Below, piece after piece: positions 1,205 to 45,108 of a stretch of 60,745 bases of DNA (the first letter of the stretch is position 1; each line of letters begins with the position of its first letter). The stretch covers positions 1 through 60,745 of the forward strand of contig JAADHV010000034.1 in the NCBI GenBank assembly GCA_013151635.1. The letters are read 5' to 3'. The position numbers and the translations under genes are program-made. The notes beneath the pieces were generated by a model. It did not search any database. It worked only from the letters and a program-made list of their open reading frames with translations, and was not told the origin of the DNA. The DNA is from Deltaproteobacteria bacterium (GTDB taxonomy: Bacteria > Desulfobacterota > Desulfobacteria > Desulfobacterales > Desulfobacteraceae).

Positions 1205-3271
1205 TCATCCAATGCCATACTTTTTCATTTTTTCATAAAGAGTGTTACGTCCGATACCTAAAACTTTGGCCGATCTGGTAATGTTGCCCTTATAAAATAG
1301 AAGCGCCTTTTTAATGTTATCTTTTTCCAGACTGCGCAAGGTCGGGATTCTATCTTCGCCAAATTGGGGCTTTTCAAACTGTTTTTTTCTAAAACAGGCG
1401 GGAAGATTTTTTACGGCAAGTGTGTCATCCGTCATAAAATTTACGGCACTCTCTAACGCATTGACCAATTCCCGCACGTTTCCGGGCCAATGGTAATTTT
1501 CAAGCCGAATTAACGCCTCAGGTTCTATCTGTTTGATTTTTTTGCCCATCTTTCGGGATATTCTATCAACCCAGTACCGTGTTAACAGCTCGATATCTCC
1601 TTGCCTGACTTTTAAGGACGGGAGTGTAATGCTGATGACATTCAGCCGGTAGTAAAGATCTTCTCTAAAGCGTCCTTTGGTTACCTCTTCGAAGAGGCTC
1701 TTATTGGTGGCGGCAATAATGCGGACATTAAGCGGGATTGCCTTTTTACCACCCACAGGCATGATTATTTTTTCTTCCAGCACCCGCAACAGGTTTATTT
1801 GCATTTCCAAAGGCATTTCACCGATCTCATCCAAAAACAGAGTCCCACCATTGGCCGATTCAAACTTGCCAGTACAACCGCCCCGCTTGGCACCGGTGAA
1901 GGCACCGTCAGCATAACCGAAAAGTTCGCTCTGGATCAATTCTTTGGGGATGGCACCGCAATTAACGGGTACAAACGGACCACAATGGCAGTCACTGGCA
2001 CCATGGATCGCCTGGGCAAAAAGCTCTTTACCCGTACCGCTTTCACCCAGGATAAGAACGGTGGACGGTCCCGGGGCAACGCTTTTAGCTTTTTCTATGG
2101 CGTGGCGGATAGCATCGCTTTCGCCGATAATATCCACAAATCGAAAGCGGACAATCACATCCTCTGGTTTATTACTTGAAAAATAGGATCGGTTTGTGGG
2201 TGACAGGGTTAAAACAAAACCCCGATTATCATTTTTCTCCGAAAAAACCGGATTAGCCGTTGCGACACATGATCTCTGCCCGCAAGGCATCTTGAGTCTT
2301 ACCTCTTCTTTGGTCATGCCGGCCGACCTGGTCTTGAAAAAATTCTGTAGCCGGCCATTATGATAAATAGATGCGGTTAAAGTTTGCCCCACCACTTCTT
2401 TGGGATGGAGGCGGAAAATTTTGGCCGCCACCTTATTGAGGCCTGTAATTATACCTTGAGCATTTACTGCAATAATTCCGTCGGAAACAGAATTCAGCAC
2501 GGCTTCCAGATATTTATTAGTATTGTAGAGCTGGTCGTATGATTCGTCCAAAACAATACGGTCTTCAATAGCATGGGCTGCTGCGACAACCAATCCCAGC
2601 TGATGGACAGTTGACAGTTCCCGTGGGCCTGATATGTCCAGAAACCCGACGATCTCTCCATTCTGTTTTCTGATAGGCGCGGCAGAGCAAGTCCATAAGT
2701 GGTGGGTTTCACAATAATGTTCCGGGCCCGTAATCTGGACGGGATGCCCTAAGGCAAGTGCTGTTCCGATGGCATTTGTGCCAACAAATTCTTCTCCCCA
2801 GTTGGCACCGGGTCCGAATCTTAACTTGTCCGCCTGCCTCAACTCTTTTAACGCCCCCACGGTTCTAAGGATATATCCTTCCTTATCTATTAAAACAATT
2901 ACAAATCTTGATCCTCGGACACAATGGTAGAGAGTATCCATGATCGGTTTTGCCAGAACAATGATTTTTTCAGACCTGCCTTTCATTTTCCGTGGGGAGA
3001 GAAATTTTTCACATACGCCTCGAAAAGGGTCAACTTCCGCTTGCTGGCTCCGGCGCCAGGATTGCTCGATTTTTTTATTGAAGCTGGGATCATTAACCTG
3101 CCCGGATTTCAAGAAATCAATCCATGTTTTCTTTTCCGTTCTGGAAAGCAATTGCCAGGTGCTGCCATACCACTTGGGGCTGAAAATGGACTTGATGATC
3201 GCATCCGAATCAGTTTTCAGGCCATTTTTCACGAAGCAGAACTGATTATGCTTGCGTATCAGACTATACAT
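1205..3271 (-). CDS. acoR: AcoR-type sigma-54-dependent transcriptional activator
   Basis: Enhancer-binding protein of 688 residues, likely the activator of the acetoin operon upstream. Order of domains: an N-terminal region and GAF-type sensor (about 90-230, with GPGANW and GTNAIGTAL as in AcoR proteins), a PAS domain (about 260-330), the AAA+ sigma-54 contact domain with Walker A GESGTGKE near residue 404, GAFTGA loop near 454 and Walker B GGTLFLDEIGE, and a Fis-type helix-turn-helix at the C-terminus (KVLGIGRNTLYEKMKKYG). The start at 3271 is preferred over 3304 because AAAGGAG lies six bases before it. It is the last gene of the minus-strand block, and a matching -24/-12 promoter lies at 25367-25382. 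The inducing ligand is inferred from the neighbours. Confidence 0.88.
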   Translation of the reverse strand: MYSLIRKHNQFCFVKNGLKTDSDAIIKSIFSPKWYGSTWQLLSRTEKKTWIDFLKSGQVNDPSFNKKIEQSWRRSQQAEVDPFRGVCEKFLSPRKMKGRSEKIIVLAKPIMDTLYHCVRGSRFVIVLIDKEGYILRTVGALKELRQADKLRFGPGANWGEEFVGTNAIGTALALGHPVQITGPEHYCETHHLWTCSAAPIRKQNGEIVGFLDISGPRELSTVHQLGLVVAAAHAIEDRIVLDESYDQLYNTNKYLEAVLNSVSDGIIAVNAQGIITGLNKVAAKIFRLHPKEVVGQTLTASIYHNGRLQNFFKTRSAGMTKEEVRLKMPCGQRSCVATANPVFSEKNDNRGFVLTLSPTNRSYFSSNKPEDVIVRFRFVDIIGESDAIRHAIEKAKSVAPGPSTVLILGESGTGKELFAQAIHGASDCHCGPFVPVNCGAIPKELIQSELFGYADGAFTGAKRGGCTGKFESANGGTLFLDEIGEMPLEMQINLLRVLEEKIIMPVGGKKAIPLNVRIIAATNKSLFEEVTKGRFREDLYYRLNVISITLPSLKVRQGDIELLTRYWVDRISRKMGKKIKQIEPEALIRLENYHWPGNVRELVNALESAVNFMTDDTLAVKNLPACFRKKQFEKPQFGEDRIPTLRSLEKDNIKKALLFYKGNITRSAKVLGIGRNTLYEKMKKYGIG

Positions 3272-3468
3272 CTTTTTCTCCTTTACTTTCCGGCCATCCT
3301 GCAATTTTTACCATTCATATCGCCCTGATTGCCATATTTTGAAGAAATTCTATATTCAGATACCAGCAGGCCTGTTTAATATATTTATCTTTGTTTAGAG
3401 TGCTTTACAAGTATTTTCAGCACCCTATTTCCATAAATGCACCTTTTCAGACATATTTCCCGGAATAC

Positions 3469-4527
3469 TCAAAACACTTCCGTGATGTTCAGTTGCTTTC
3501 GAATCAATAGTATATCTGCCCTGTTTGGTTCAAACGGGTAGTTGCGCATTCTTGGACCAGGCCTGGAATTGGCAAAGGGCCGGTTGCAGGCCACCTCACC
3601 GTTCTCCCCCTCACAGCCGCTGGTGCGGAAGGGCTGGCCCGAGTCGATCACCTGGTCCAGCTTCTGGCTGGTCAGGCCGAAATCAACAATCCGTTCATCC
3701 TGGTCATAGGCAAATCGTTCCGCACGGCTTAAGTTTTCATCCATGATATACCGGGCCAACTGGATGCGGCGGTAATGGTCCATGGCTGGCATGGGATGGT
3801 CACTCATACTGGAGCCCGGTTCCGGGTAAAAAGAAAACAGGTGGGTCCAGCCTCCCATGTCCTGAATCATTTGAATAATTTCCACCATCTGCTTTTCGGT
3901 CTCCCCCATTCCTGTAATCAAATGAGCACCTGCATTACGTTCCCCGAAGATGTCAACGGCCTGGGTCAGCCGCTTTAAATATGTCTCCCAGCAATGTGGT
4001 CCTCCCACCCCGCTGCCACGATATTGGTCGAAGAGAACCGGTGTGGCCAGATCAATGGCGACGCCGATCTTATCAGCCCCGGCAGTTTTAAATTCCTTTA
4101 AATCCTGCTGGGTGGCAATGGTGGGAGATATCAGCAAAGATACAGGGATATCAAAACTCGATCGCAGTTGCCGACAAATGGTTAGAGTATCACCGATGGA
4201 ACGTTTATTGGTAATCTGGGAGATGCAGATCCTTTTGACACGCTGCTTGTGTTCAGCAATCCGTTCAATGACCTTGGCCGTTTGGCAGGTGGGCCAGGTC
4301 ACCCGGATAAAGCTCTTCTTGTGGTACATTCCGGATCGCTTGCCGGACAGGCCACAGTAGGCGCAGCGCGCAGCACAGCCACTATTGTATGTCAGCAGCA
4401 GATTGATGCAGTAGAGCCTGGCATTTCTGTAAAAAAGGCCCTGTTTAAAGCCAAGGGCCATGGCTGCTGCAAGGCTCATGCGCAGGTATTCGGGGCTTTC
4501 TGATTTCCCTTCTTGATAATGTTCCAT
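3469..4527 (-). CDS. Radical SAM protein, LipS1/LipS2-type (lipoate assembly)
   Basis: Radical SAM enzyme of 352 residues. The [4Fe-4S] motif is CAARCAYC (Cys51, Cys55, Cys58), followed by a TIM-barrel-like region and a C-terminal extension containing a Cys (GCEGENGEVAC) that could bind a second cluster. It resembles BioB/LipA-like enzymes in layout but lacks the LipA N-terminal C-x4-C-x5-C motif. It sits beside a second radical SAM gene, a LipT-like flavoprotein and a lipoate ligase, the gene set of the recently described sLpl(AB)-LipS1/LipS2 lipoate pathway, where two radical SAM proteins together insert sulfur into octanoyl groups. I cannot say from sequence alone which of the two is LipS1. 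The assignment rests mainly on gene context. Confidence 0.7.
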   Translation of the reverse strand: MEHYQEGKSESPEYLRMSLAAAMALGFKQGLFYRNARLYCINLLLTYNSGCAARCAYCGLSGKRSGMYHKKSFIRVTWPTCQTAKVIERIAEHKQRVKRICISQITNKRSIGDTLTICRQLRSSFDIPVSLLISPTIATQQDLKEFKTAGADKIGVAIDLATPVLFDQYRGSGVGGPHCWETYLKRLTQAVDIFGERNAGAHLITGMGETEKQMVEIIQMIQDMGGWTHLFSFYPEPGSSMSDHPMPAMDHYRRIQLARYIMDENLSRAERFAYDQDERIVDFGLTSQKLDQVIDSGQPFRTSGCEGENGEVACNRPFANSRPGPRMRNYPFEPNRADILLIRKQLNITEVF

Positions 4528-4539
4528 GGTGACGGGTCC

Positions 4540-5502
4540 TTATAATGGGCTGGTCAGCCACCAGCCGGGTTCGGAAATATCCCGGGTAACCGAACAGCAG
4601 GTTTTCTGATAATGTATCTCAAGATCATAGCTCTTGGCCTGGGCAACAGCCTCATCCGACGGCAGGGCCATACAGTTGACACCGGCATCAATGGCCAGGG
4701 TTTCCAGGTGATGGTTGCCCCGCTGGCGAGCGCAGCCCAGACTGATAGGGGTGGCCGGCATTTTAGTCCGCGCTTCAGCAATGACATCGGCCACCGCTTC
4801 AGGTGTGGGGGAGGGGGTGCCCCAGACCGGTGTTCCGGGGATGGCCATGAGGGAGACAACCACCAGCTGCTCCACCTTGAAACCGGCTATCATCTCAACG
4901 GCCTGTTTTTCTCCTTTGATGTGCCCGTAATTCAGCCCACAGACAATATGGGGAATCATGGACAGCCCGGCCTCCTGAAGGGCAACCATGGCATCGTGGA
5001 TGCACTTTACCCCGAAAGGGACATGGTACATCTTTCTAAAGGTATCATCATCACCAACGACATCAATGAGGGCCTGGTCCACGCCGGCCTGTTTCAAATC
5101 AAAGGCTTCGTGTTCATTGATCAGTCCGCTATGAATGGAAATAAACAGATCAGTACGCCGCTTGATCTCTTCAATAGCGGGAATAAAACGGTCCCAGGGC
5201 AGACGTCCCGACAGATCACACCCTCCGCTGATAAGTACCCCGTGGTTGCCCGTGGCGGCCAGTTCCAGGCACTGCGCCACCAGCTTTTCGGGTGTAGTCG
5301 CCTGGAGCATGGAATCTAAAATTTTTCCCTGGCAGTGATCGCACTTAAGGGCACAGTCCTTTCCGGTTATGGAGGTTGCAGGGTACTTTCCGTTGACTCC
5401 GTTGAGCACAAACATCCCGGGCAGATAAAAAATAATCTTCTTGCCAAAATGGTGCCAGGAACTTTCCCTGGCCATCTTCAGGCGCTTTTCAAACTCAGAC
5501 AT
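4540..5502 (-). CDS. Radical SAM protein, LipS1/LipS2-type (lipoate assembly, second)
   Basis: Radical SAM enzyme of 320 residues with CALKCDHC (Cys50, Cys54, Cys57). A later GGCDLSG stretch near residue 93 and a Cys pair near the C-terminus (TCCSV, about 303-304) are further possible cluster or substrate ligands. Its start overlaps the end of the LipT-like gene by 8 bases, so the two are probably translationally coupled, and the other radical SAM gene follows after 12 bases. The pairing of two different radical SAM proteins with a lipoate ligase is the hallmark of the LipS1/LipS2 system; each is thought to add one sulfur to C6 or C8 of protein-bound octanoate. A generic radical SAM role remains possible. 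Confidence 0.7.
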   Translation of the reverse strand: MSEFEKRLKMARESSWHHFGKKIIFYLPGMFVLNGVNGKYPATSITGKDCALKCDHCQGKILDSMLQATTPEKLVAQCLELAATGNHGVLISGGCDLSGRLPWDRFIPAIEEIKRRTDLFISIHSGLINEHEAFDLKQAGVDQALIDVVGDDDTFRKMYHVPFGVKCIHDAMVALQEAGLSMIPHIVCGLNYGHIKGEKQAVEMIAGFKVEQLVVVSLMAIPGTPVWGTPSPTPEAVADVIAEARTKMPATPISLGCARQRGNHHLETLAIDAGVNCMALPSDEAVAQAKSYDLEIHYQKTCCSVTRDISEPGWWLTSPL

Positions 5503-6562
5503 AATACTCCCTGTAGGCTACCCAGCACTGTTTTATAATGGTGTCGAATACGTTCCAGCAGGCCTCCATCTGCTCTCGCCGACAATGCGCCCGCGTCTGG
5601 GTTTCGCCAAGCAAGTCCTGCCATTCGCGGTCATAGGCCTTTAAAATTGTCATGTCGCTGGCAGCCACCGCAGCGGCGGCATATTTACCGGCCAGCTTGC
5701 CACAGGTCACGGCCGCGAATATACCGGCACCCGTAATCGGATGGGTGTGGCCGGCGGCATCACCTGCCAGCATAATTTTACCATGCACGGCATTGCGCAC
5801 TGGTTCGGCCGGTATCCAGCCGGTGGTATGGGCCAAAGGCGCACCGCAGATCTTGCCGTCAGTTTTCAGCCGCCGGATGAATCCATCCAGCACTTTCCGA
5901 AGAGAAAGCTGACCGCCGGAGGGCCGCAGCATGCCAAGTCCCACATTAGCCACCTTTCCCTTGGGAAACAACCACCCATATCCGGCCACAATTTGGGGAT
6001 CAAAATAAATCTCAGTACATGCAAGAGGCGCGGCCAGAGGCAATGTCATTTGAACGCCAGGCAGCAGATGACGGTTCACAACGCCCGCCCAGCGACCAAT
6101 TGTAGATCTGGGGCCATCAGCACCGATGATCACCTTGGGGCGAACAGTATATGCCCGTCCATCCCTGGGGGACAGCGTCACATCACCCTCCGGACGCATG
6201 GCAATGGCCCGGGTGGCACACCTCACTCTGGCCCCGGCTTTTCGGGCAGCGGCAACCAGGGCCTGGTCAAATAACTCACGGCGGATGATATAGCCGGGAG
6301 CCACGGTTTCTTTGACTGCCTGTCCGGGCATATGGGTACGCATGCCCTCTATCTTCTGGACAACATAACCGCCTTTCAGCCCCAGTTGTCCTTTGAGCAT
6401 GGCTGGAATATATTCGGCACATTGCACGGGCAGGCCCACCTGCTGTCGGCGTTCCACAAGCAGGACATGTGCGCCTTGCCGGGCGGCAGCCAGGGCTGCA
6501 CTGGAACCCGCCGGCCCGGCGCCAACCACCAGGATATCCCAATCAGGAGTCGTCATGGTCAC
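5495..6562 (-). CDS. lipT: LipT-like FAD-dependent oxidoreductase (geranylgeranyl reductase family)
   Basis: Flavoprotein of 355 residues in the geranylgeranyl reductase/FixC superfamily. It has an N-terminal dinucleotide fold VGAGPAGSSAALAAARQG (about 13-30) with the VERR acidic end, a central IIGADGPRSTIG, and the second FAD contact MLAGDAAGHTHPITGAG. No membrane segment is seen. In the sLpl/LipS lipoate pathway a protein of this family, LipT, is encoded with the ligase and the radical SAM enzymes and is thought to provide reducing power. Here the start overlaps the stop of the ligase gene (ATGA-type overlap at 6559-6562) and the end overlaps the next radical SAM gene, so all four are one translational unit. 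A role in lipid reduction is the alternative; context argues against it. Confidence 0.72.
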   Translation of the reverse strand: MTMTTPDWDILVVGAGPAGSSAALAAARQGAHVLLVERRQQVGLPVQCAEYIPAMLKGQLGLKGGYVVQKIEGMRTHMPGQAVKETVAPGYIIRRELFDQALVAAARKAGARVRCATRAIAMRPEGDVTLSPRDGRAYTVRPKVIIGADGPRSTIGRWAGVVNRHLLPGVQMTLPLAAPLACTEIYFDPQIVAGYGWLFPKGKVANVGLGMLRPSGGQLSLRKVLDGFIRRLKTDGKICGAPLAHTTGWIPAEPVRNAVHGKIMLAGDAAGHTHPITGAGIFAAVTCGKLAGKYAAAAVAASDMTILKAYDREWQDLLGETQTRAHCRREQMEACWNVFDTIIKQCWVAYREYYV

Positions 6563-8148
6563 TTCTTTTCACCCGCATTCAACCCTGCAGCCGTATCCAG
6601 CACGGCCTGCAGCAGCTCCAGGTTCACTTCGGTCTGGCTTTCAAATTTTCCGGCATAGGCTTCTTTGGCCTGGTCAAGGTCGTAGCAGGTGGTATTGTCG
6701 ATATCCAGCAGGATTCCAGGAAGGCCGGATTTTTTAAAATCATCCACGTGCTTGACAAAAAAAGGCTGGCAGCAGCAACCGATATATGCACGAACCCCGT
6801 CCTTTTTCATCTGCATTAATTCATCCCAAAGATCCTCGAAGCTGACAATGCTGATAACTTTCATTTTTCTGTTCTGCCCCATGGCCCATGCCGGTCCGAT
6901 GGAACACCTTGCCTCTTTGCAGATCTTACACCCTTTTTCATATCTTAAATCACATTTGGTGAGTTTAGCGCAATAGGGCAGCAGCAGCACTGATGGCTGC
7001 TTTTCAATCACCTCTCCAAAAGAGCCGTTGGTAACGCAGATCAGGTTGCAATGCGCCAAGGGGATACCATAGTTTGTGATATCAACCTTCTCAAGACATA
7101 GATCCAGAGGCTTGACAAAATCCTCAAAGGACAATCCCGGAATGAGGATGCGCTCCTGATCAAAATAGTTTCGGATGATCCCATGCAGACAGTCCCGGTC
7201 AAGGGGTGCGCCCCTGAGTTCAGTCTCCATGTCATAGAGAGCCCGACCGGGAAAGGAGAGAAAATCACCGGTGATATAAATATCTTTCAGGCGCTTCTGG
7301 GGCAGGTTGACCACCAGGGTAAAGCGCACCATGCCCGCCGGCGCCTTGTAAGCTGCCTGCACTGCCTCACGCTTCTGGAAACACGGATTAACGCTCCCAA
7401 CCCATTGGGCGGACCGGAAATGCGGTAGCTTCTTCTGAAACCGCTTTTGTTCTTCATCGGTCAAGCCGCCCAACTCAAGTTTTATATCCAGACACTTTTC
7501 AAACCCTGACTTGATGGCCTGTTTAATTCCGGAAAGATCCGGGACATCGCCCAGTTCCCATTTCAGGCAGGTGACCCGGTCCTTGACCGAATCGATCTCC
7601 CTGGCCTTGAGCTTTTCCACCGGAATCCGCAGTGCCTTTAGCATAGTATCCACATCAAAATCCACCAGCATGGTACCCTGAAACATGAAAGCGTCGCCAG
7701 CCTCGGTACCACCGGTGCCTGAAATTTTGCGCCCATTGACCTCGATGTCGTTGCGCGGCCTGAACCCGGCGTTAATATTCAACAGCGCAAGGGCCATGAC
7801 CACCGGATCACACAGTGTTTTGAATAAATATGCGTTGGGAATGGTGGTATTAAAAAAAGACTTGTCACAAAAAACTTCCCAACCCAACTGGTTTTCATCA
7901 AAAAAAACCGCACCTCCACCGGTAATGCGCCGGTTCACATCAATTTTATTTGTCCGGCAATAGCCGGTTCGTATCTCCTCGGCAATGGCCTGGTGAAAAC
8001 CCACCAAAACCGCCCTTGGCGAGAACTGTAGGAAACGGACGGTATTCGGGCTTTTCCCTTTGCCCTTAAGTTCCAGCAGGGTTTCGTCCATGGTCATGTT
8101 TTCAGCCGCTGTCATGGGTGGTGTGTCTAATAGTCTCCAGGTTTGCAT
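6559..8148 (-). CDS. Lipoate-protein ligase fused to a DUF116 domain
   Basis: A 529-residue two-part protein. Residues about 1-350 form a biotin/lipoate ligase (BPL_LplA_LipB fold plus accessory domain): it opens with TWRLLDTPP, has RRITGGGAVFFDE (the RRxSGGG ATP/lipoate loop) and NGRKISG with the conserved catalytic-site Lys, then GTEAGDAFMFQGT. From about 361 the chain becomes a DUF116 domain rich in Cys: 393, 399, 407, 410, 415 and a CCC triplet at 458-460, suggesting an iron-sulfur cluster. Ligases of this group (sLpl) attach octanoate or lipoate to carrier proteins. The DUF116 fusion suggests that ligation and a cluster-bearing function are linked, perhaps to the radical SAM sulfur insertion downstream; this is inference. 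Confidence 0.82.
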   Translation of the reverse strand: MQTWRLLDTPPMTAAENMTMDETLLELKGKGKSPNTVRFLQFSPRAVLVGFHQAIAEEIRTGYCRTNKIDVNRRITGGGAVFFDENQLGWEVFCDKSFFNTTIPNAYLFKTLCDPVVMALALLNINAGFRPRNDIEVNGRKISGTGGTEAGDAFMFQGTMLVDFDVDTMLKALRIPVEKLKAREIDSVKDRVTCLKWELGDVPDLSGIKQAIKSGFEKCLDIKLELGGLTDEEQKRFQKKLPHFRSAQWVGSVNPCFQKREAVQAAYKAPAGMVRFTLVVNLPQKRLKDIYITGDFLSFPGRALYDMETELRGAPLDRDCLHGIIRNYFDQERILIPGLSFEDFVKPLDLCLEKVDITNYGIPLAHCNLICVTNGSFGEVIEKQPSVLLLPYCAKLTKCDLRYEKGCKICKEARCSIGPAWAMGQNRKMKVISIVSFEDLWDELMQMKKDGVRAYIGCCCQPFFVKHVDDFKKSGLPGILLDIDNTTCYDLDQAKEAYAGKFESQTEVNLELLQAVLDTAAGLNAGEKK

Positions 8149-8261: not shown

Positions 8262-9470
8262 TTAGCCGCTATCAGAGCGATCTTTACCGGCAATTGCCTT
8301 TTGCACCAATTGGGTAATATCCATAACTTCAATGGACACCTTATTCCTTCTGGCATAAGTGGTCATGGTGCGCACACACTGCTGGCAGGCCGTGACAACA
8401 GCGTGGGCTCCGGTTTGCAGGATATCGTCAATTTTAGCCCTTGCAATATCCGCAGAGAGTTCAGCGTCGATCATCTCCAGATTACCGCCACCGCCACAAC
8501 ATAGACAGTTCTCACGGTTATGGGCCAGTTCCACAAGTTTAACTCCGGGTATGGAACGGATGACCTGTCGCGGGGCTTTGTATTCTCCGCTCCCGCGGCC
8601 CAAGTCACAGGGGTCATGATAGGTCACTGTCAGGGATAGATCATCGAGCAGAAGTTTCCCTGAGACCATCAATTCGTTTACAAATTGAGTAACGTGATAA
8701 ATCTCAAATTCCCGGGGGTAATGCTCTTGCCACATCTGATAACAGGAGGGGCAGGAAAAGATCACCTTTTGAGCTCCTCTTGCCTGCACCGCCTTAATAT
8801 TGTGATCAATCAGATCCTCCATCCGATCCCTGAGCCCGGCACCTAACATGGGAAACCCGCAACACCACTCATCTTCTCCCAGCAGGGTAAAATTCACCCC
8901 GGCTGCATCGAGAATCTCCACCAGCGCCATGGGAATGGTCTGGGCCATGGGGAAATAAGCTGAAACGCAGCCGGTAAAATAGACCACGTCTGCCTGATCT
9001 TTGATATAACCATGATCCGGGGCAGCAGGCATATCCTCCACCCATTCGGCACGCTCCTTGTTGTCCTCATCAAAAACATTGTGACTTTCAGCCAGGTTTT
9101 CAGCAATCATATCCACTTTCTTTGGATAGGCATGGCAGTGAACCATGTCCTGGCGCAGAGACAGCCACAAATTTTTCAGCAGGATACCCGATGGACATGC
9201 CTGCTGGCATCTGCCGCAAAGGGTGCAGCGAAATACCGTATCACTGAATAGTTTTAAATGCTCTTCTGTCAATGTCTGGCTACCAAAAAAAATTGCCAAA
9301 AATCCTGTACGGGACCGCATGATCCTGCGCAGTTCACTAAGGCGATACACGCCTGACAGCCGCCCATCCCCTGCTGCTAAAACCGCAGGGCACACATCAG
9401 CGCACAAGCCACAGCCAGTGCAGGCATCCATCTGCAAAATCTCCATGATGCTGTAATCTGTCTGGGCCAT
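8262..9470 (-). CDS. HdrD-like iron-sulfur protein (two 4Fe-4S, two CCG domains)
   Basis: Soluble protein of 402 residues with the architecture of heterodisulfide reductase HdrD, GlpC and DsrK. Two [4Fe-4S] motifs, CTGCGLCADVC (Cys17, 20, 23, 27) and CTLCGRCQQAC (Cys82, 85, 88, 92), are followed by two CCG domains: the first with CVSAYF and EWCCGFP, the second with CDLGRGSG and CLCCGGGG. CCG domains hold the cubane or non-cubane clusters that cleave disulfides in HdrB/HdrD. No membrane segment, so it would depend on a membrane partner; the six-haem cytochrome b-like protein two genes upstream is the obvious one. Only two bases separate it from the GcvH-like gene, suggesting that the carrier is its substrate or partner, as LbpA is for sHdr. 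Confidence 0.82.
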   Translation of the reverse strand: MAQTDYSIMEILQMDACTGCGLCADVCPAVLAAGDGRLSGVYRLSELRRIMRSRTGFLAIFFGSQTLTEEHLKLFSDTVFRCTLCGRCQQACPSGILLKNLWLSLRQDMVHCHAYPKKVDMIAENLAESHNVFDEDNKERAEWVEDMPAAPDHGYIKDQADVVYFTGCVSAYFPMAQTIPMALVEILDAAGVNFTLLGEDEWCCGFPMLGAGLRDRMEDLIDHNIKAVQARGAQKVIFSCPSCYQMWQEHYPREFEIYHVTQFVNELMVSGKLLLDDLSLTVTYHDPCDLGRGSGEYKAPRQVIRSIPGVKLVELAHNRENCLCCGGGGNLEMIDAELSADIARAKIDDILQTGAHAVVTACQQCVRTMTTYARRNKVSIEVMDITQLVQKAIAGKDRSDSG

Positions 9471-9472
9471 TT

Positions 9473-9895
9473 TCAGTCTTCTTTATATTTTTCGATATCG
9501 GTCAAGACCCATTTTTTAATTGCTTCGCCGCCATGGATCAAACTCTCCACCTCACCCATGTCAGCCGGTTTGATCTTATACATCCACCCCGCACCGTAAC
9601 AATCCTGGTTGATAAGCGCAGGATTGGTTTCAAGGACTTCATTACCCTCAATCAACTCACCGTTGACCGGCGCATAGACCTTGCCCAGCCATTTGCCTGA
9701 TTCCACCTGGGCAAATTTTTTACCGGCTTTGAGTTTTTTCCCTGCAAAGGGAATTTTCACGAAGACAATATCACCGGCCATCTTCTGGGCAAAATCATCC
9801 ATACCCATGACCAGTATGTCTCCTTCTATACGTACCCAGTAATGGTTTTTCTCGTAATACAAATCTTGGGGCATTTGATAGTCTTGAATTTCCAT
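9473..9895 (-). CDS. GcvH-like lipoyl carrier protein (LbpA-type)
   Basis: A 140-residue H-protein-like lipoyl domain. The attachment site is ESGKW with Lys68 as the predicted lipoylated residue, followed by YAPVNGELIEGNE and a GAGWMYKIKP turn as in GcvH. No gcvT or gcvP lies anywhere in the window, and the gene is sandwiched between an HdrD-like gene and a multihaem cytochrome gene, just upstream of the lipoate ligase/LipS/LipT genes. This arrangement matches the lipoate-binding proteins (LbpA) of sHdr-type systems better than a glycine cleavage H protein. A clear ribosome binding site (GGAGC) precedes the start. Its cargo is unknown: it could carry electrons, acyl groups or sulfur from the acetoin dehydrogenase or another donor. 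Confidence 0.82.
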   Translation of the reverse strand: MEIQDYQMPQDLYYEKNHYWVRIEGDILVMGMDDFAQKMAGDIVFVKIPFAGKKLKAGKKFAQVESGKWLGKVYAPVNGELIEGNEVLETNPALINQDCYGAGWMYKIKPADMGEVESLIHGGEAIKKWVLTDIEKYKED

Positions 9896-9932
9896 ATCCC
9901 TGCTCCTTTCATAATAGCAAGCGGTTTAAATT

Positions 9933-11252
9933 TCATTTCCGAAAACAGTCTTCTGTCCGGGATCGGGCACTAATGACCAGAACGATGGGGGCTGTGATAA
10001 TATGAGCCATGCGAGTAAAAGGGATCAGGGCCACAAAAACGCCAGTCAGGATTGCATGGGCATACCACACATAGCTGTATATATCTGTCAACCGAGGTAT
10101 GCCTTTAAACAGCAAACTTATGGCATAGCCCAAAAACGCCCATCCCGCCCTGTCAGACCATCCGGTCATGGCAATACGCAGCCCTTCCAGGATAAATCCC
10201 ACCAGAACGATCAGGACAATCATTACCGGCATACCCCGCCCCGGTTCGGGCAGTAAGGCAATTGTCCCGCCCGGATCATTGCTTTTACGCCCAATAACAG
10301 CTGCCAAACCTATAAGAATCATCATGCCGGTCACATCAAAAAGCAAAGCCCGCACGGCAAAGTCTTTATCCATCATAGCAAGGGTTACAGATCCATCCGG
10401 CAAAAATATCGAAAGTAAAAGTGCTGTCAGGCCAAAAGCGAGACGAAAAAAAAACGGAAATAAGATCAGGGCATGGATGATCCAACGGGTCCGTGACCGC
10501 TGAAAAAGCCGTTGCAGCAGAACCACCTCCATGAAGACCGTTTTCAGCAGCCGGAATGATTTACCGGGAAAAAAGGTACCAGGTTCGAGTCGTGTCTTAA
10601 AATCGGTTTTCTTTCCAGAGCGGAGCGCTCCCCTGTCGATTGATCCCGAGAACCAGACAATACCGCATCCGATCATGCCTATTATAAATATAAACAAGGA
10701 GACAAGGGTGGTTGTATCACCCACAGAGAAGGTCGCCACATGACAGGGCATGCACAAGATACTTTTCGAGGGTATCACCATGGCTGCTGCCCCTATGCTG
10801 TTGCCTGCAAAATGGCAGGTACTGCATCCTTCATCTGTTCCGGACTGAATCGATTGATGGGGCGGCAATGACATTCCGGGCCGGAACATACCGCTGAAAA
10901 TAATATTTTTCGATTCAGGATCTATCGCCGGAACACCACCTTTCACATGACAGGCCTTGCAGGCAACCCGGGTGTGGGCATCATGAAGTACCTTTTCATC
11001 GTGGGGCTTATGGCATTGACGACACCCGACCTGTGCGATCTGTTCATGGTCTTTCTCAGCCGCCTGGATATGACATTCCAGGCATGGAATGTCCCTGTGG
11101 ATGGATGCTGCATGATCAACCGCCATTTCCTCGTGGCATTCCATGCACTGGGCATTGGTATAACCGGCCATCCCCTCCCCACTACTTGCAAGCACAGATT
11201 CTTGCATAATTAAAATCACCAGAACCAATGTGAGAATAACTGATATTTTCAT
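9933..11252 (-). CDS. Multihaem c-type / NarI-like b-type membrane cytochrome
   Basis: A 439-residue membrane protein with an N-terminal signal/anchor, a periplasmic region carrying six CxxCH haem c sites (CMECH, CLECH, CRQCH, CKACH, CSTCH, CMPCH, between about residues 36 and 172), a transmembrane helix, and then a five-to-six helix domain resembling NarI/DsrM-type cytochrome b. Fusion of a multihaem domain to a quinone-reactive cytochrome b is reminiscent of membrane parts of Hme/Hmc and DsrMKJOP-like complexes. With the HdrD-like protein downstream it could form a menaquinone-linked complex. The ATG overlaps the stop of the upstream methyltransferase gene by four bases; that junction is inherited from the DUF6506 tail copy (see repeats). 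Confidence 0.8.
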   Translation of the reverse strand: MKISVILTLVLVILIMQESVLASSGEGMAGYTNAQCMECHEEMAVDHAASIHRDIPCLECHIQAAEKDHEQIAQVGCRQCHKPHDEKVLHDAHTRVACKACHVKGGVPAIDPESKNIIFSGMFRPGMSLPPHQSIQSGTDEGCSTCHFAGNSIGAAAMVIPSKSILCMPCHVATFSVGDTTTLVSLFIFIIGMIGCGIVWFSGSIDRGALRSGKKTDFKTRLEPGTFFPGKSFRLLKTVFMEVVLLQRLFQRSRTRWIIHALILFPFFFRLAFGLTALLLSIFLPDGSVTLAMMDKDFAVRALLFDVTGMMILIGLAAVIGRKSNDPGGTIALLPEPGRGMPVMIVLIVLVGFILEGLRIAMTGWSDRAGWAFLGYAISLLFKGIPRLTDIYSYVWYAHAILTGVFVALIPFTRMAHIITAPIVLVISARSRTEDCFRK

Positions 11253-16241: not shown

Positions 16242-17258
16242 CTAGTTTGTTTTTAGCCTACTGCGCTTATTTATACTGCTGCTGAAAAAATTTTCTTTAT
16301 TCACTGCAAATGCCATTGTCCGGCTGACATCCACGACAAAGGGCCCGTCCGCTGAAAGTCGTATTGTCGCCTTTTGCCCCTTTTTGATTTCTACCTCCCG
16401 TTCCCCATCCAACGCCACCACACAAGGACTAAAGGTAATATCCATTTCTTCACCAGCCGCCATCAATTGCATGTTTTCAATTAACACATCTTCAATAATC
16501 CCGGGTGCTATGGGCGCCGTGACCGACAGTCCATTTTTGCCTAATTCCAGAGCCATGCTGAAAGGCTCGTCCGGAGCGATGGAACGGAGCATCCCGCCGA
16601 TGGAGGAAAAACCGATGTTTGCCGGACTGGAACGATTCAAAAAAATTTGCCTGATTTTATCCGTTTTCCATATGGCACGGGACCCGATAAACACATCCGC
16701 ACTGACCACTGCATCTACCAGCGCGATATCAGCAACCTTGTTTTCAATGACAACCTCCAGGCGGGTAGATTGGAATGTTCCCTCTTCCCTGGAGACTTTC
16801 CCGGTGCCGATCAGGCCGGCCGCAAGCCCTGCCACCGTTCCTTCGACCATGTAGGGGAACACGTTGTTTGTGCCGGTTGACAATGGCAGAATCGGGACCT
16901 GGCCCGCTCCCTTGGCCACCACCCGATTGGTACCGTCACCGCCTAGGGTGACAATGCAGCCTGCCCCTTGCTGGGCCAACAGCTGCGCCGCTTTGATGGA
17001 ATCGCGCTGGTCCGCCTTGACCTCAAATTGCAGCCTTTCAGCCGATAAATCGGCATGCAACCCGTCCAGGGCCCGTTCCACAATCCCGTGGTAATCCGGC
17101 ATATAAGCAATGTGATGGATGCTGGCGGCTTGCAGCCCCATAAGGACGCGGCGCACAACGCGAATTTTTTCCTGGTTGTCGACCACACTGCTGTAAGCGA
17201 CAAGCCGGCGAATATCTTTTCCAGAGGCCGGATTAGCGATGATACCGATCAATGACAT
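16242..17258 (-). CDS. acoX: AcoX-like ATP-NAD kinase family protein
   Basis: A 338-residue protein of the NAD kinase/diacylglycerol kinase fold: it starts IGIIANPASGKD and has the nucleotide-binding LGGDGTNR (about residue 98-105) and a later LSTGTNNVFP. Proteins like this are encoded in many aco operons as AcoX, where the biochemical role is unproven. It sits between the membrane protein and DUF6506 genes of the operon. It might also act as a real NAD kinase; the operon position favours AcoX. Confidence 0.85.
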   Translation of the reverse strand: MSLIGIIANPASGKDIRRLVAYSSVVDNQEKIRVVRRVLMGLQAASIHHIAYMPDYHGIVERALDGLHADLSAERLQFEVKADQRDSIKAAQLLAQQGAGCIVTLGGDGTNRVVAKGAGQVPILPLSTGTNNVFPYMVEGTVAGLAAGLIGTGKVSREEGTFQSTRLEVVIENKVADIALVDAVVSADVFIGSRAIWKTDKIRQIFLNRSSPANIGFSSIGGMLRSIAPDEPFSMALELGKNGLSVTAPIAPGIIEDVLIENMQLMAAGEEMDITFSPCVVALDGEREVEIKKGQKATIRLSADGPFVVDVSRTMAFAVNKENFFSSSINKRSRLKTN

Positions 17259-18480: not shown

Positions 18481-19455
18481 TTAAGCCATCACTTTTTTGA
18501 CAGCATCAATAAGTTGCTGTTCGCTCGGTATATAGGCTTTCTCTAACGGCGGAGAAAAAGGGACCGGACAAAAAGGTGCAGCCACCCGTAAAATCGGTGC
18601 ATCCAGATAATCAAAGGCTTCTTCAGCCACCTGGGCGGCTATTTCAGCCCCTGATCCGGCAAATTTTACTTCTTCATGCAGAATCACCAGCCTGTGGGTT
18701 CTTTTAACAGATTCAAAAATTGTCTCCCCATCCAGAGGATAGAGTGTACGCGGATCGACTACCTCCAGGCTGATCCCGTCGGCGGCAAGCTTCTCAGCTG
18801 CCCCCAAAGCAGTATGGACCATATTGGCCGTGGCCACAATTGTGACGTCTTTGCCTTGGCGCTTGATATCGGCCTGGCCAAAGGGGATGGTGTAAGCACC
18901 GGAAGGAACCTCCCCTTCCATGGCATAAAGCATTTTGTGTTCCAGAAAAACCACCGGGTTGTCATCACGAATCGCTTCGATCAAAAGCCCCTTGGCATCA
19001 TAAGGTGTACTGGGCATGACCACCTTTAGTCCCGGAAGATGCATGAACAAAGCTTCCAGGCATTGGGAGTGCTGAGCTGCGGCCCCGATCCCGGCACCGC
19101 ATGCTGTGCGCATGACCATTGGAATTTTAGCTTTGCCGCCAAACATATATTTCATTTTTCCCGCCTGGTTATAAAGCTGATCCAGGGCCACACCGATAAA
19201 ATCGACAAACATCAGCTCAATAACAGGCCTGAGACCGGCGCTTGCTGCTCCTACTGCTGTCCCGACGATGGCACTTTCAGTAATAGTGGTATCTTTCACC
19301 CGCTTTTCACCAAACTGGTCGAGAAGGCCGGCCGTTACACCAAAACATCCTCCAAAAACCCCTACATCCTCACCAGCTATATAAATATTGGGATCACGCT
19401 CCATTTCAACAACATGAGCATCTTTTATTGCTTCTGCAAAAGTCATATCAGGCAT
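18481..19455 (-). CDS. acoB: Acetoin dehydrogenase E1 component, beta subunit
   Basis: A 324-residue transketolase-like beta subunit. The family stretches EDVGVFGGCFGVT (near residue 28), DTTITESAIVGTAVGAA, and EHKMLYAMEGEVP followed by GKDVTIVATANMVHTAL and DPRTLYPLD are present. With the alpha subunit it forms the thiamine diphosphate E1 that cleaves the 2-hydroxyketone (or decarboxylates a 2-oxoacid) and hands the acyl group to E2. AcoX and AcoR in the same cluster favour acetoin as substrate over pyruvate. It is preceded by AGGAGG before the start. Confidence 0.9.
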   Translation of the reverse strand: MPDMTFAEAIKDAHVVEMERDPNIYIAGEDVGVFGGCFGVTAGLLDQFGEKRVKDTTITESAIVGTAVGAASAGLRPVIELMFVDFIGVALDQLYNQAGKMKYMFGGKAKIPMVMRTACGAGIGAAAQHSQCLEALFMHLPGLKVVMPSTPYDAKGLLIEAIRDDNPVVFLEHKMLYAMEGEVPSGAYTIPFGQADIKRQGKDVTIVATANMVHTALGAAEKLAADGISLEVVDPRTLYPLDGETIFESVKRTHRLVILHEEVKFAGSGAEIAAQVAEEAFDYLDAPILRVAAPFCPVPFSPPLEKAYIPSEQQLIDAVKKVMA

Positions 19456-19552: not shown

Positions 19553-20512
19553 TTACGTATACACATCTTCCAACAGCCCGGATATATCGGGATACGGGCT
19601 TTCTTCGGCAAATTGTTCGGCTGCGGTCAGATCCTTTTGAAGTTCCTGTTTGATTTTTTCAATTTTACTTTGTGTCAGCAATTCCATTTCCAGCAGTTTC
19701 TGTTCCAGTCGCGGGATCGGGTCTTTTTCTTTCCACTCCTCGAGTTCCGCATCATCGCGATAGGTGCAGGGATCGCCTTCAAAGTGCCCTCTGTGACGAT
19801 ATGTCTTGCATTCAATCAGGGACGGACCCTTGCCCTGGCGGGCCCGGTTGATCCCTTCGGCGGCCGCTTCCCAGACGGCAACAGCATCATTTCCGTCCAC
19901 AACCACACCGGGTATATCGTATCCCGCGGCACGGTCGGCAATGTTTGGAACGCACATGGATTTAGTCGTACAGCAAGAGATACCGTACATATTGTTTTCA
20001 TTGATAAACACCACCGGCAGCTTCCAGCATGCGGCCATATTCATGGCCTCATGGGTGGTTCCCTGGTTTGAGGCGCCGTCACCGAAAAAACAGACCGCCA
20101 CATTGTCATTGCCCATATACTGGCAGGCCAGTGCTGCTCCGGAAGCCAACGGCGGACCTCCGCCCACAATACCATTGGCCCCCATAATGCCAAGATCAAG
20201 GTCGGCAATATGCATTGAGCCGCCCTTTCCCTTGCAGTAACCGGTTTCTTTGCCGAACAACTCGGCCATCATCTTTTTGATATCCCCGCCCTTGGCAATG
20301 AGATGGCCGTGACCGCGATGGGTACTGGTGATATAATCCTTGTCGGTCAGGTTCTCGCAAACCCCTGTGGCAACGGCCTCCTCACCCACATACAGGTGAA
20401 CAAAACCGGGGATTTTACCGTCGGCAAAAAGCTCGGCAACACGATTTTCAAAGGTTCGAATCTTGACCATGGTGGTATACATTTGAATTAATTGTTCATT
20501 GGTCAGGTCCAT
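19553..20512 (-). CDS. acoA: Acetoin dehydrogenase E1 component, alpha subunit
   Basis: A 319-residue E1 alpha subunit. The start at 20512 is chosen over 20557 because AGGAGG lies six bases upstream of it. The phosphate-loop region THRGHGHLIAKG, then GKGGSMHIADLDLGIMG, and the thiamine diphosphate motif from GDGASNQG to NENN (about 163-192) are intact. It accepts the substrate in the active site shared with the beta subunit. The length and GKETGYCKGKGGSMH pattern fit AcoA/PdhA of Gram-positive-type complexes, in keeping with the alpha-beta-E2-E3 set found here. Confidence 0.9.
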   Translation of the reverse strand: MDLTNEQLIQMYTTMVKIRTFENRVAELFADGKIPGFVHLYVGEEAVATGVCENLTDKDYITSTHRGHGHLIAKGGDIKKMMAELFGKETGYCKGKGGSMHIADLDLGIMGANGIVGGGPPLASGAALACQYMGNDNVAVCFFGDGASNQGTTHEAMNMAACWKLPVVFINENNMYGISCCTTKSMCVPNIADRAAGYDIPGVVVDGNDAVAVWEAAAEGINRARQGKGPSLIECKTYRHRGHFEGDPCTYRDDAELEEWKEKDPIPRLEQKLLEMELLTQSKIEKIKQELQKDLTAAEQFAEESPYPDISGLLEDVYT

Positions 20513-20540
20513 TGGCTTCCTCCTTGATTTTTTTTTAAAA

Positions 20541-20588
20541 TTAATAAACAGCTTCATAAAATACCGTTAAATTTATTGTGTTGGCCAT
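20541..20588 (-). CDS. Possible 15-residue mini-ORF before acoA
   Basis: An ATG at 20588 preceded by AAAGGAGGG at a short distance opens a 15-codon frame (MANTINLTVFYEAVY) ending 29 bases before the acoA start. It may be a coupled leader that loads ribosomes for acoA, or a remnant. Expression is unproven. Confidence 0.3.
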   Translation of the reverse strand: MANTINLTVFYEAVY

Positions 20589-20636: not shown

Positions 20637-20996
20637 TCATGGAATGGAAACCGTCACGGCTGCATTGACCACAACGATTTGATCACAATTGGGTGCAAAA
20701 TCGGGTACGCACAACCCTTCCACAACCATGCCGCCAGCCACCGAACGGGCAGTTTTCTGTCCGATGGGTGCAATGGCCTTGACCTGCTCCAAATCCACTT
20801 CCCCCGGCCTTGGAGAGGCCACAATAATATCCACCTGTACAGCCTGAAGATCATCCATGCCACAAATTTCTACCAATCCGCACAGACAACTTCTTGAGAT
20901 GGCGTCCTTCACAGCCCGGCATGCGGCCTTGGTGACGTCTTCTCCGTGCAGATCAGCCCCTGTTCCGATTTCAACAATAAAACGTTTTGATTTCAT
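20637..20996 (-). CDS. Lin0512 family protein
   Basis: A 119-residue protein opening KRFIVEIGTGADLHGEDVTK, the pattern of the small Lin0512 family (TIGR02058), which is broadly spread and has no known function. It is Cys-containing (SCLCGLVEICGM) but has no obvious cofactor motif. Its start overlaps the stop of the lipBA fusion gene, so it belongs to the operon between lipoate synthesis and E1 alpha. A link to lipoate or acetoin metabolism is inference from position only. Confidence 0.65.
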   Translation of the reverse strand: MKSKRFIVEIGTGADLHGEDVTKAACRAVKDAISRSCLCGLVEICGMDDLQAVQVDIIVASPRPGEVDLEQVKAIAPIGQKTARSVAGGMVVEGLCVPDFAPNCDQIVVVNAAVTVSIP

Positions 20997-22552
20997 CAGC
21001 CTGCCTTTCTATATGAATTGTTATGGAATAGACTTTTGCCTGCACCCATCATTTGGGCGGCACGATAGGAACTTCTTACCAGCGGCCCTGCGGCCACGGA
21101 TGCAAACTTCATGGCTCTTGCAGTTACAGCCCACATCTCAAATTCTTCCGGCAAAACATACCGCGCCACCGCCACATGGTCTTTGGAGGGTGCCAAATAT
21201 TGGCCCAGGGTTAGCAACATGCAACCAGCATATTTTAAATCCATAAGGGTTTTTTTGATCTCATCTTCGGTTTCACCAAGGCCCAGCATAAGGCCTGATT
21301 TAACAAAAAGCCCCCGGGAGGAAGCATATGATAAAACCCCAAGTGAACGCCGGTATTCAGCTTTGGGCCGAACCCCGGCATACAGCCGGGGCACGGTTTC
21401 AATATTATGGTTGAACACATCAGGCCGTGCTGCACATACCGCATCCATGGACGGGATATTTCCGTTAAAATCCGGCACCAGCACTTCCACAGATACACCG
21501 GGGCAATACTGCCGGATCAAGCGGATGGTTCCGGCAAACTGCCCGGCCCCGCCGTCGGGTAAATCATCCCGGGTCACAGAGGTGACCACGACATGGGTTA
21601 ACCCCAATTCCCGCACAGCCATGGCGACCCGTTTAGGTTCCTCGTCATCTAAAGAATGGGGTGCGCCCTTATCCACGGCACAAAATCGGCATCTGCGGGT
21701 GCAGCTTGTTCCCAGGATCATGAAAGCAGCAGTGCCCTGGTAAAAGCATTCCATCTGGTTAGGACAATGGGCACTCTGACAGACAGTGGCCAGGTGCAAC
21801 CGCTTCAGCTGCTTTTCCATACGATCTACAGTTTCAAGGCCGGTTGTTGATTTAACCAGCCATGACGGTCGCCTGCCAGGCTCGGCATTTGCTTTTTCAC
21901 TGGGGGTATACCCCAGTTGACTGCAAAAATGATCAACAAATCTCTTTTTTACATTTGATATGTCCACAGGACCGTCTATTTCATGATCCATGGAAGTTAT
22001 TTTTTCTTCTTTCTGACCGCAGGGAACAATCAGATCAAACCATCCGGGATCTGTACAAACATTTAAGGCAATCCCATGGTAGGTGACGTGCTTGCGCACA
22101 GACAGACCGACACTGGCGATCTTGGCTGTGTTTACCCAAAGACCGGGTTTCCCCTTTTTAAATTCAGGAACAAGCCCAAAATCCCCTAGCACTCCGGCCA
22201 CAGTATCGAGCAGTCGCTTCAAAAAACTGTGAATATCTTTGCCTCTGACCTTGACAATAGGGTAAACCACCAATTGCCCAGGCCCATGAAATGTTGCCCT
22301 GCCACCCCTGTCCACCTGATGCAGGGAAACGCCCTTTTGATCCAGAACCTCTTTTGCGACACGAAGGTCCTTCAAGCTTCCGCTGCGGCCGATGGTCACT
22401 ACCGGCGGGTGCTCAACCAGGATCAGACGATCCAAAGCCCGGCCTTTTAACCGCTCGGCAACCAATTGGCGCTGGCGGATAAGGGCCTGGGCATAGTTAA
22501 GCACTCCCCAATCGATAATTTGAATCTTTTTTAATCCGGGATTTTCCATCAC
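20996..22552 (-). CDS. LipB-LipA fusion: octanoyltransferase and lipoyl synthase in one chain
   Basis: A 518-residue fusion. Residues about 1-225 are LipB: DRGGRATFHGPGQLVVYP, KIASVG with the active-site Lys and a PCG with the catalytic Cys. Residues about 230-518 are LipA, complete with the auxiliary cluster motif C-x4-C-x5-C (CQSAHCPNQMEC), the radical SAM motif CTRRCRFC and the terminal RSSYRA with the Ser ligand. It would make lipoyl groups on the E2 protein from octanoyl-ACP in two steps without release. Start is GTG at 22552 or ATG at 22549, four bases after the E3 gene. Such fusions are uncommon; this is one of two lipoate systems in the same operon. Confidence 0.93.
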   Translation of the reverse strand: MMENPGLKKIQIIDWGVLNYAQALIRQRQLVAERLKGRALDRLILVEHPPVVTIGRSGSLKDLRVAKEVLDQKGVSLHQVDRGGRATFHGPGQLVVYPIVKVRGKDIHSFLKRLLDTVAGVLGDFGLVPEFKKGKPGLWVNTAKIASVGLSVRKHVTYHGIALNVCTDPGWFDLIVPCGQKEEKITSMDHEIDGPVDISNVKKRFVDHFCSQLGYTPSEKANAEPGRRPSWLVKSTTGLETVDRMEKQLKRLHLATVCQSAHCPNQMECFYQGTAAFMILGTSCTRRCRFCAVDKGAPHSLDDEEPKRVAMAVRELGLTHVVVTSVTRDDLPDGGAGQFAGTIRLIRQYCPGVSVEVLVPDFNGNIPSMDAVCAARPDVFNHNIETVPRLYAGVRPKAEYRRSLGVLSYASSRGLFVKSGLMLGLGETEDEIKKTLMDLKYAGCMLLTLGQYLAPSKDHVAVARYVLPEEFEMWAVTARAMKFASVAAGPLVRSSYRAAQMMGAGKSLFHNNSYRKAG

Positions 22553-45093: not shown

Positions 45094-45108
45094 TATAATT
45101 CTCCCTTT

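Follow-up and report, generated by a model that had tools for sequence, protein, structure and literature searches.

Electrons held by dihydrolipoyl groups are, in the textbook scheme, passed by dihydrolipoyl dehydrogenase (E3) to NAD+. A lipoyl electron carrier, LarG, has been proposed in Pelobacter carbinolicus, near an Act complex and an E3 gene (PMC3543383), and the LbpA proteins are described as having two strictly conserved cysteines, N- and C-terminal, that are absent from GcvH, some archaeal LbpA excepted (PMC6067878). In EtfD, the mycobacterial electron transfer flavoprotein (ETF):menaquinone oxidoreductase, the electron wire to menaquinone is built from two CCG domains together with two cubanes and a haem b; the protein has five membrane helices, holds a linear 3Fe-4S cluster in its first CCG motif and overlays on HdrDE (PMC13083937). 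Here we analyze a 60,745-nucleotide stretch of DNA from a Deltaproteobacteria bacterium (contig JAADHV010000034.1, hereafter the window), one contig of a 4.2-Mb draft genome whose source is presumably a Desulfobacteraceae sulfate reducer. It encodes, side by side, a GcvH-like lipoyl carrier (GcvHx, "the carrier"), an HdrD-like protein ("HdrD") and a NarI-like membrane cytochrome ("the cytochrome"). Comparison of sequences leads us to propose, with a probability of a little under 60%, that this trio lets electrons leave for the membrane by way of lipoyl groups, fed by an E3 that bypasses NAD or by GlcDF.

All three genes lie on the minus strand, adjacent to one another as a preliminary description of the locus had placed them, with 37 nt between cytochrome and carrier and 2 nt between carrier and HdrD. 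HdrD (402 residues, 8262..9470) matches Pfam CCG in two stretches as well as Fer4, and has two 4Fe-4S sites and two complete CCG motifs (C168, C203C204, C240xxC243 and C288, C324C325, C362xxC365). Each of these ten cysteines is kept in at least 97 of 98–99 aligned rows—the rows for all three proteins include overlapping fetches of the same genomes—and the two motifs of C-CC-CxxC pattern point to a thiol-disulfide reductase of HdrD/HdrB type. The carrier (140 residues, 9473..9895; Pfam GCV_H, 8.2e-40) has Lys68 in an ESGKW motif (codon 9692–9694); this residue is K in 91/91 aligned carriers, W69 is found in 90/91 rows and C99 in 87/91. The cytochrome (439 residues, 9933..11252) carries six CxxCH motifs (residues 36, 57, 77, 98, 143, and 167) followed by C-terminal NarI/EtfD-like helices, and matches Pfam Nitrate_red_gam (3e-5) together with weak haem-motif models. 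Six or more CxxCH, up to 11, were counted in 60 of 61 cytochrome rows, the remaining row being cut short. H260, H399, and H417 are invariant and are likely the haem b ligands; the H399/H417 spacing presumably equals that of NarI H187/H205. The composition given in the preliminary description—a carrier with Lys68, two 4Fe-4S and two CCG domains, a hexahaem cytochrome—is thereby confirmed, as is the lack of other sHdr subunits: HdrA-, HdrB-, or HdrC-like genes were found in none of 40 window open reading frames (ORFs) scanned, a subset of all ORFs. No member of the ETF family was found among the scanned neighbor genes of the trio.

To follow the trio across genomes, eight HdrD orthologues were run against a named-genome collection and the best 80 of 278 relatives were taken as loci (L-numbers denote loci, G-numbers genomes; L060 and L062 are from one isolate), with neighbor genes counted by tblastn within set distances. 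Save six labelled merely bacterium or Proteobacteria, the loci belong to delta-proteobacterial groups and include NaphS2, Dethiosulfatarculus sandiegensis, Desulfocicer vacuolatum, Desulfocarbo indianensis, and Desulfovibrio sp. An276. The carrier was found near HdrD in 69 of the 73 loci that extend 600 bp or more upstream and the cytochrome in 48 of the 52 that extend 4 kb or more, which bears out the expectation that the trio is conserved in order. A lipoate ligase is near in 48 of the 63 loci with at least 2.5 kb downstream, and LipS1 plus LipS2 in 14 of the 44 with at least 6 kb downstream. Together with the invariant Lys68, ligases so placed would fit a lipoylated carrier. Some loci argue against the trio as a fixed unit: the carrier was not found near HdrD at L056, L057, L090 (where it lies 3.6 kb from HdrD), and L121, with the cytochrome adjoining HdrD in L056 and L057 and no carrier found between them; the cytochrome is missing near L061, L065, L087, and L121, the last being without a carrier as well; and 15 of the 63 loci have no ligase near. 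Members of the HdrD family, taken at an E of 1e-120 or lower, occur in 40 of the 395 genomes of a phylum sample. In one locus (L045:9821-13556, from G039) the trio genes seem to be split into several frames, by decay or poor sequence.

The argument for a bypass of NAD rests on the E3 encoded upstream of the trio (22556..23926, minus strand), in which two NAD fingerprints were scored: GxGxxG/A, and an acidic residue at the end of the second NAD strand, which in the E3 NAD site holds the NAD ribose. Aligned to the E3s of PDB 2eq6, 6uzi, 1dxl, and 1ebd, the window E3 has GFGYIE at residues 171–176 where E3s have GxGxxG, and Ala194 at the acidic position, followed by Glu195; C39/C44, H432/E437, and the FAD motifs are kept. 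The set of trio E3s comprised 22 sequences (the window's, 19 from the 80 loci, one of G050 at L041, and one of G022 on another contig than its HdrD), leaving out a fragment in L047 and broken pieces in L045. Neither fingerprint is present in 18 of them, only GxGxxG/A in three, only the acid in one and both in none, while the redox cysteines are found in 20 (the other two sequences are truncated where the fetched DNA ends) and the His-Glu pair in all 22. By comparison, the control E3s of relatives, namely the host's glycine-cleavage-linked E3 and 24 fetched from a larger set of matches, one that also has forms of about 700 residues, keep fingerprints, redox cysteines, and His-Glu pair in 25 of 25 cases. 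E3s that stand beside E1 and/or E2 where the DNA fetched around them (under 5 kb in two cases) holds none of the trio genes, some of these E3s being shared with the other sets, have the acid in 10/10 cases and both fingerprints in six, the other four having Ser or Glu as third residue. Among 29 phylum-sample matches examined, either fingerprint occurs in 0/12 E3s at least 46% identical to the window's (some genomes shared with the trio set); the next 17 have both fingerprints in 14 cases and the acid only in three. In the E3 tree, canonical rows form one clade (100/100) and window-type NAD-less rows another, and a smaller trio-linked clade is sister to three acid-only rows.

Several features of these E3s weigh against a loss of NAD use. 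The window E3 passes the lipoamide dehydrogenase equivalog TIGR01350 with 439.5 bits at a cut-off of 408.8. The four one-fingerprint E3s make up the entire second trio-linked clade: that of L095 keeps the acid, and those of L097, L101, and L117 keep GxGxxA with Arg after the acid position. Arg at this place is the NADP-type pattern, and these three could have an NADP-type site. Of the 21 rows that lack the acid, seven, among which is the window's, have Asp or Glu as the next residue (Arg in three rows), and a shifted NAD contact through this next acidic residue is possible. Finally, E3s of L169, L180, and L181, a group without the HdrD family, have lost the third glycine and kept the acid, so third-glycine loss needs no trio. 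These E3s might therefore have an altered site that still lets them use NAD(P) or some other nucleotide, with the trio serving as a second outlet for excess dihydrolipoyl. The predicted E3 fold (predicted local distance difference test, pLDDT, 88) and the one-fingerprint and shifted-acid rows just listed speak for this explanation, which we consider improbable given that both fingerprints are absent from 18 of 22 trio E3s, something found in 0/25 controls and in 0/10 of the trio-less, E1/E2-linked E3s. NAD-site loss is thus well supported in the window-type clade and less so in the smaller trio-linked one. Two genomes of the trio-less, E1/E2-linked set, G137 and G365, speak against a genome-wide cause of the E3 change: both encode the HdrD family elsewhere, and yet the E3 of their E1-E2-E3 operon is canonical.

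The association extends to whole genomes. A window-type NAD-less E3 occurs in 13 sample genomes including the window's, and the HdrD family is present in 10 of these 13 versus 30 of the 382 others (Fisher p 8.6e-9, relatedness not corrected); E3 and HdrD lie on different contigs in G058 and G440. In the exceptions G338 and G277, the E1/E2/E3 gene run holds a carrier of 45–47% identity beside GlcD-like and HdrD-like (38–41%) stretches, and a second carrier is also present. G139 counts against the link, having an NAD-less E3 and no HdrD of the trio family; on another contig it has a carrier beside an 860-residue GlcD-HdrD fusion, near CCG and methylene-tetrahydrofolate (THF)-reductase family genes. 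As for the genomes with acid-only E3s, G077 and G115 have a carrier next to genes of the lactate racemase family and genes for GlcD-HdrD fusions (Pfam for L324 only), and G150 (80% complete) has just an ESVKAV-type GcvH and a weak match. A GlcD-HdrD fusion supposed in G277 was not borne out, there being no GlcD match in that ORF; such fusions were borne out in L302, L305, L324, and L325.

Two sets of candidate donors accompany the trio. At least one E1, E2, or E3 gene was found in 21 of the 80 loci and a GlcD-like FAD protein and/or a GlcF-like CCG protein in 32; the two sets occur together in none, and neither was found in 27, many of which are short contigs. A single donor type was therefore rejected. 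In the window, the genes E1 alpha (19553..20557) and E1 beta (18481..19455), named pyruvate dehydrogenase by the curated E1 models, and E2 acyltransferase (23968..25299, with a lipoyl domain carrying Lys43) lie upstream of the trio on the same strand, and the donor is likely an acetoin or 2-oxoacid dehydrogenase, with GlcDF likely taking this place elsewhere. Lactate racemase family genes are near 8 of the 80 loci (Pfam Lar_N/LarA_C for L105), and two dehydrogenases precede the cytochrome in L099, one of the zinc and one of the short-chain type, a pair that would fit butanediol/acetoin. Because the trio accompanies a complex that transfers acyl groups in some loci and a flavin dehydrogenase in others, its shared task is most simply electron transfer; the common ground of the two donor sets is redox, not acyl chemistry. 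This bears on the idea that the carrier is a relay in lipoyl assembly, passing lipoyl or octanoyl groups to E2, with HdrD and cytochrome merely co-regulated. A lipoate ligase, LipS1/LipS2-like proteins and an LplA-LipA fusion are indeed encoded in the same gene run, and a GcvH relay with LipL is established in Bacillus subtilis (PMC10332631, PMC6067878). We nevertheless regard such a relay as unlikely, for it leaves unexplained both the E3 change and the CCG protein 2 nt away, and the 32 loci with GlcD/GlcF-like genes have no E1/E2/E3 found within the search distance.

Three further arrangements of carrier-like genes were seen. In L324:9585-13928 and L325:9967-14341, an ETGKW-type carrier and a lactate racemase family gene are followed by a GlcD-HdrD fusion of 829–839 residues with no cytochrome match near, perhaps a soluble variant. 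In L302:7718-17282 and L304:3532-9260, a carrier-like GcvH (42–45% identity) stands beside CCG proteins and methylene-THF-reductase family genes, and lipoyl carriers may thus meet Hdr-type methylene-THF reductase clusters too. In L303:5150-8074 and L306:2273-5072, the carrier-like gene adjoins LipS2-like and lipoate-ligase-like genes with no HdrD match in the stretch; uvrC and secA are close to it in L303.

In the electron route that we infer, the E1-E2 dehydrogenase (of acetoin or 2-oxoacid type) would reduce the lipoyl group of E2, and the E3, through its FAD and redox disulfide, would take these electrons to a lipoyl group on Lys68 of the carrier and not to NAD+. The dihydrolipoyl carrier would then dock on HdrD, where the CCG clusters would re-form the lipoyl disulfide, and the electrons would pass over the 4Fe-4S clusters of HdrD to the NarI-like cytochrome, with menaquinone and/or periplasmic cytochromes as the next acceptors. 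HdrD may also accept electrons from E2 directly. Elsewhere, this module would work with a GlcD/GlcF-type hydroxyacid dehydrogenase. Menaquinone lies at about −75 mV and lactate at about −190 mV. With the lipoyl group at −290 mV (PMC6067878), the route would be downhill with E1/E2 donors. At the GlcDF loci, transfer from lactate to lipoyl would be uphill unless drained, a point against the scheme there. The suggestion in the preliminary description that dihydrolipoyl is oxidized towards the membrane gains support from this comparison, and in particular from trio E3s that lack one or both NAD fingerprints. More tentatively, and at somewhat less than even odds, protein-bound lipoate may be a mobile electron carrier like ferredoxin or ETF in many Desulfobacterota, leading from several dehydrogenases (with an NAD-free E3, GlcD/GlcF or a GlcD-HdrD fusion) to HdrD and the multihaem cytochrome without NADH.

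Flow might also run the other way, quinol or periplasmic cytochromes reducing the lipoyl disulfide through cytochrome and HdrD and so supplying a dithiol for a reductive reaction. DsrMK is thought to drive such a reduction for DsrC, and HdrD has the architecture of DsrK, with an NCBIfam equivalog score of 106.6 bits at a cut-off of 400; a reverse flow to a lipoyl carrier has been proposed for LarG of P. carbinolicus (PMC3543383). Against this, the partners look catabolic (E1/E2/E3, zinc and short-chain dehydrogenases, the lactate racemase family, GlcDF), transfer from menaquinol to lipoyl is strongly uphill, and an E3 without an NAD site would be unable to hand electrons to NAD. We hold reverse flow to be rather improbable and retain electron exit to the membrane as the preferred direction.

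The identity of the carrier needs separate consideration, as it passes the curated GcvH equivalog TIGR00527 with 117.8 bits at a cut-off of 115.85, which speaks against a distinct function. Its motif is ESGKW, against ESVKAV in the GcvH of glycine cleavage, and in a tree (few columns, some long branches) 84 of 85 rows resembling the trio carrier are separated from the 30 GcvH of glycine cleavage, the exception being a 33%-identity paralogue in G335. The preliminary description had seen no glycine-cleavage genes nearby, and this extends to the relatives: by tblastn, gcvT/PA/PB are near none of the 80 loci, and the host's own glycine cleavage cluster (Pfam GCV_T, GCV_H, GDC-P) is on a different contig. 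A role in glycine cleavage is not favored on these grounds. Membership in LbpA was likewise rejected by the cysteine rule given for that family (PMC6067878), for the N-terminal cysteine is missing: 82 of 91 carrier rows have no Cys in the first 40 residues, and Cys99 is not specific to the carrier, since the host's own GcvH has one too. The same residues bear on a sulfur transfer like that of sHdr, in which the carrier would bind sulfane sulfur as LbpA does. A GcvH-like carrier, an Hdr-type protein and LipS1/LipS2/LipT/ligase-like genes do occur together as in sHdr clusters (PMC10332631); with the LbpA cysteine pattern missing and sHdr genes not found among the scanned ORFs, we give this explanation very little weight. 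Elsewhere in the host genome (L037:1969-9668, on G000:C71), two proteins of about 300 residues with a C-terminal GCV_H domain, unlike the trio carrier, are encoded near a CCG protein.

On the membrane side, the best PDB sequence match of HdrD is EtfD (9ojn). For the cytochrome, modelled with AlphaFold from 44 rows (pLDDT 79), EtfD 9ojn is again the best Foldseek match (E 3e-4), by the fold of the membrane part, and NarI chains come next (E 0.03–0.2). At the first CC, EtfD aligns with C-T where HdrD is complete in both CCG domains. From sequence and model, the pair of HdrD and cytochrome looks like EtfD, or HdrDE, in split form, and its likeness to a known electron wire to menaquinone speaks for the proposed exit. 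The preliminary description had named sHdr-LbpA as the known relative; this stands for a carrier beside an Hdr-type protein and does not for the membrane pair, whose nearest solved relative is EtfD and not an sHdr protein.

That description had recognized the trio and overlooked the genes on both sides of it, lipoate-assembly genes downstream and the E1/E2/E3/LplA-LipA genes upstream, all on the same minus strand. Downstream follow a lipoate-protein ligase with a C-terminal DUF116 domain (LplA-DUF116, 6559..8148; Pfam LplA-B_cat 3.1e-46, DUF116 3.8e-8), a LipT-like FAD oxidoreductase of the geranylgeranyl reductase family (5495..6562, named LipT from its gene neighborhood; PMC10332631), and two radical SAM proteins, LipS1-like (4540..5502) and LipS2-like (3469..4527), whose best NCBIfam matches, LipS1 (212 bits) and LipS2 (228 bits), are under the cut-offs of 230 and 270. 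The DUF116 domain is cysteine-rich and goes unnamed in the main text of the paper on LipS1/LipS2 (PMC10332631). A sigma-54 activator (1205..3304, minus strand) is a possible regulator, its best matches PrdR and DhaR both being below cut-off. Upstream, the order is E2, E3, LplA-LipA (20996..22552, a lipoate ligase and a radical SAM lipoyl synthase part, named by resemblance), E1 alpha, E1 beta, a hydrophobic ORF of 355 residues within the dehydrogenase operon (17334–18401, no Pfam or NCBIfam match), an NAD-kinase-like protein, DUF6506, three TRAP transporter genes (two named by resemblance) and a methyltransferase gene, which shares a 4-nt overlap with the cytochrome gene. The NAD-kinase-like protein (16242..17258, minus strand) has no NCBIfam match, and from its neighborhood we take it to be AcoX-like.

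The TRAP and methyltransferase genes are bracketed by 58-bp perfect direct repeats (11265–11322 and 15935–15992, 4670 bp apart), and the methyltransferase gene ends, at its 3′ side, in a copy of the 3′ end of the DUF6506 gene. The block is either an insertion or an assembly effect. Because the repeats bracket these genes, and in the relative L048 they were not seen between DUF6506 and the cytochrome, the dehydrogenase operon probably once adjoined the trio before an insertion. Farther along the window are two nitrite/sulfite reductase family genes in a dsrAB-like arrangement (43945–46434, named by resemblance), accompanied by a CbiA-family gene (42149–43564), and an aldehyde ferredoxin oxidoreductase family gene (36228–38366).

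If the proposed exit is real, it would be a branch independent of NAD, with lipoate carrying electrons between molecules and on to the membrane, a respiration without NADH that is undescribed. It would explain how acetoin, keto-acid, or lactate oxidation is coupled to respiration in some sulfate reducers, give a function to a protein family named GcvH by curated models, and place a third role of lipoate beside those in carbon metabolism and sulfur oxidation. In the titles and abstract openings of open-licence PMC literature, we found no description of a GcvH-like carrier with HdrD and cytochrome, or of an E3 without NAD site, LarG being the nearest.

Set against known systems, the trio pair resembles EtfD in its two 4Fe-4S sites, two CCG domains, and membrane part, and differs in being split into two proteins, in its additional motifs for c-type haem (at least six and as many as 11), in its complete first CCG motif where EtfD has C-T, and in its proposed donor, a lipoyl carrier and not ETF. 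HdrDE of methanogens, by its general description, likewise joins a two-CCG protein to a membrane partner acting on a disulfide; here the proposed substrate is protein-bound lipoyl, c haems are added and the host is bacterial. DsrC with DsrMK(JOP) presumably offers the same principle of a thiol-disulfide protein carrier with a DsrK/HdrD-like and NarI-like membrane pair, whereas the trio has a GcvH-fold carrier with a lipoyl-type Lys, a DsrK score far under cut-off, and a likely opposite direction. The sHdr-LbpA system with sLpl(AB)-LipS1-LipT-LipS2 also sets a carrier beside an Hdr-type protein and keeps lipoylation genes together (PMC10332631); the locus described here is without the LbpA cysteine pair, has a ligase with DUF116 and carbon dehydrogenases as partners, and no sHdr subunits were found among its scanned ORFs. 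LarG, by its description, is set apart by its proposed partner, the Act complex, and by flow towards NAD, with no HdrD named in the passages on it (PMC3543383). The acetoin systems acoXABCL share E1 alpha, E1 beta, E2, E3, an AcoX-like protein, lipoate genes, and a sigma-54 regulator with the window, acoX and AcoR being typical of acetoin dehydrogenase systems (PMC3543383), and differ in that the window E3 has no NAD fingerprints and the trio is added. We judge the thiol-disulfide carrier with an HdrD-type membrane complex to be the known kind of system to which this arrangement would belong.

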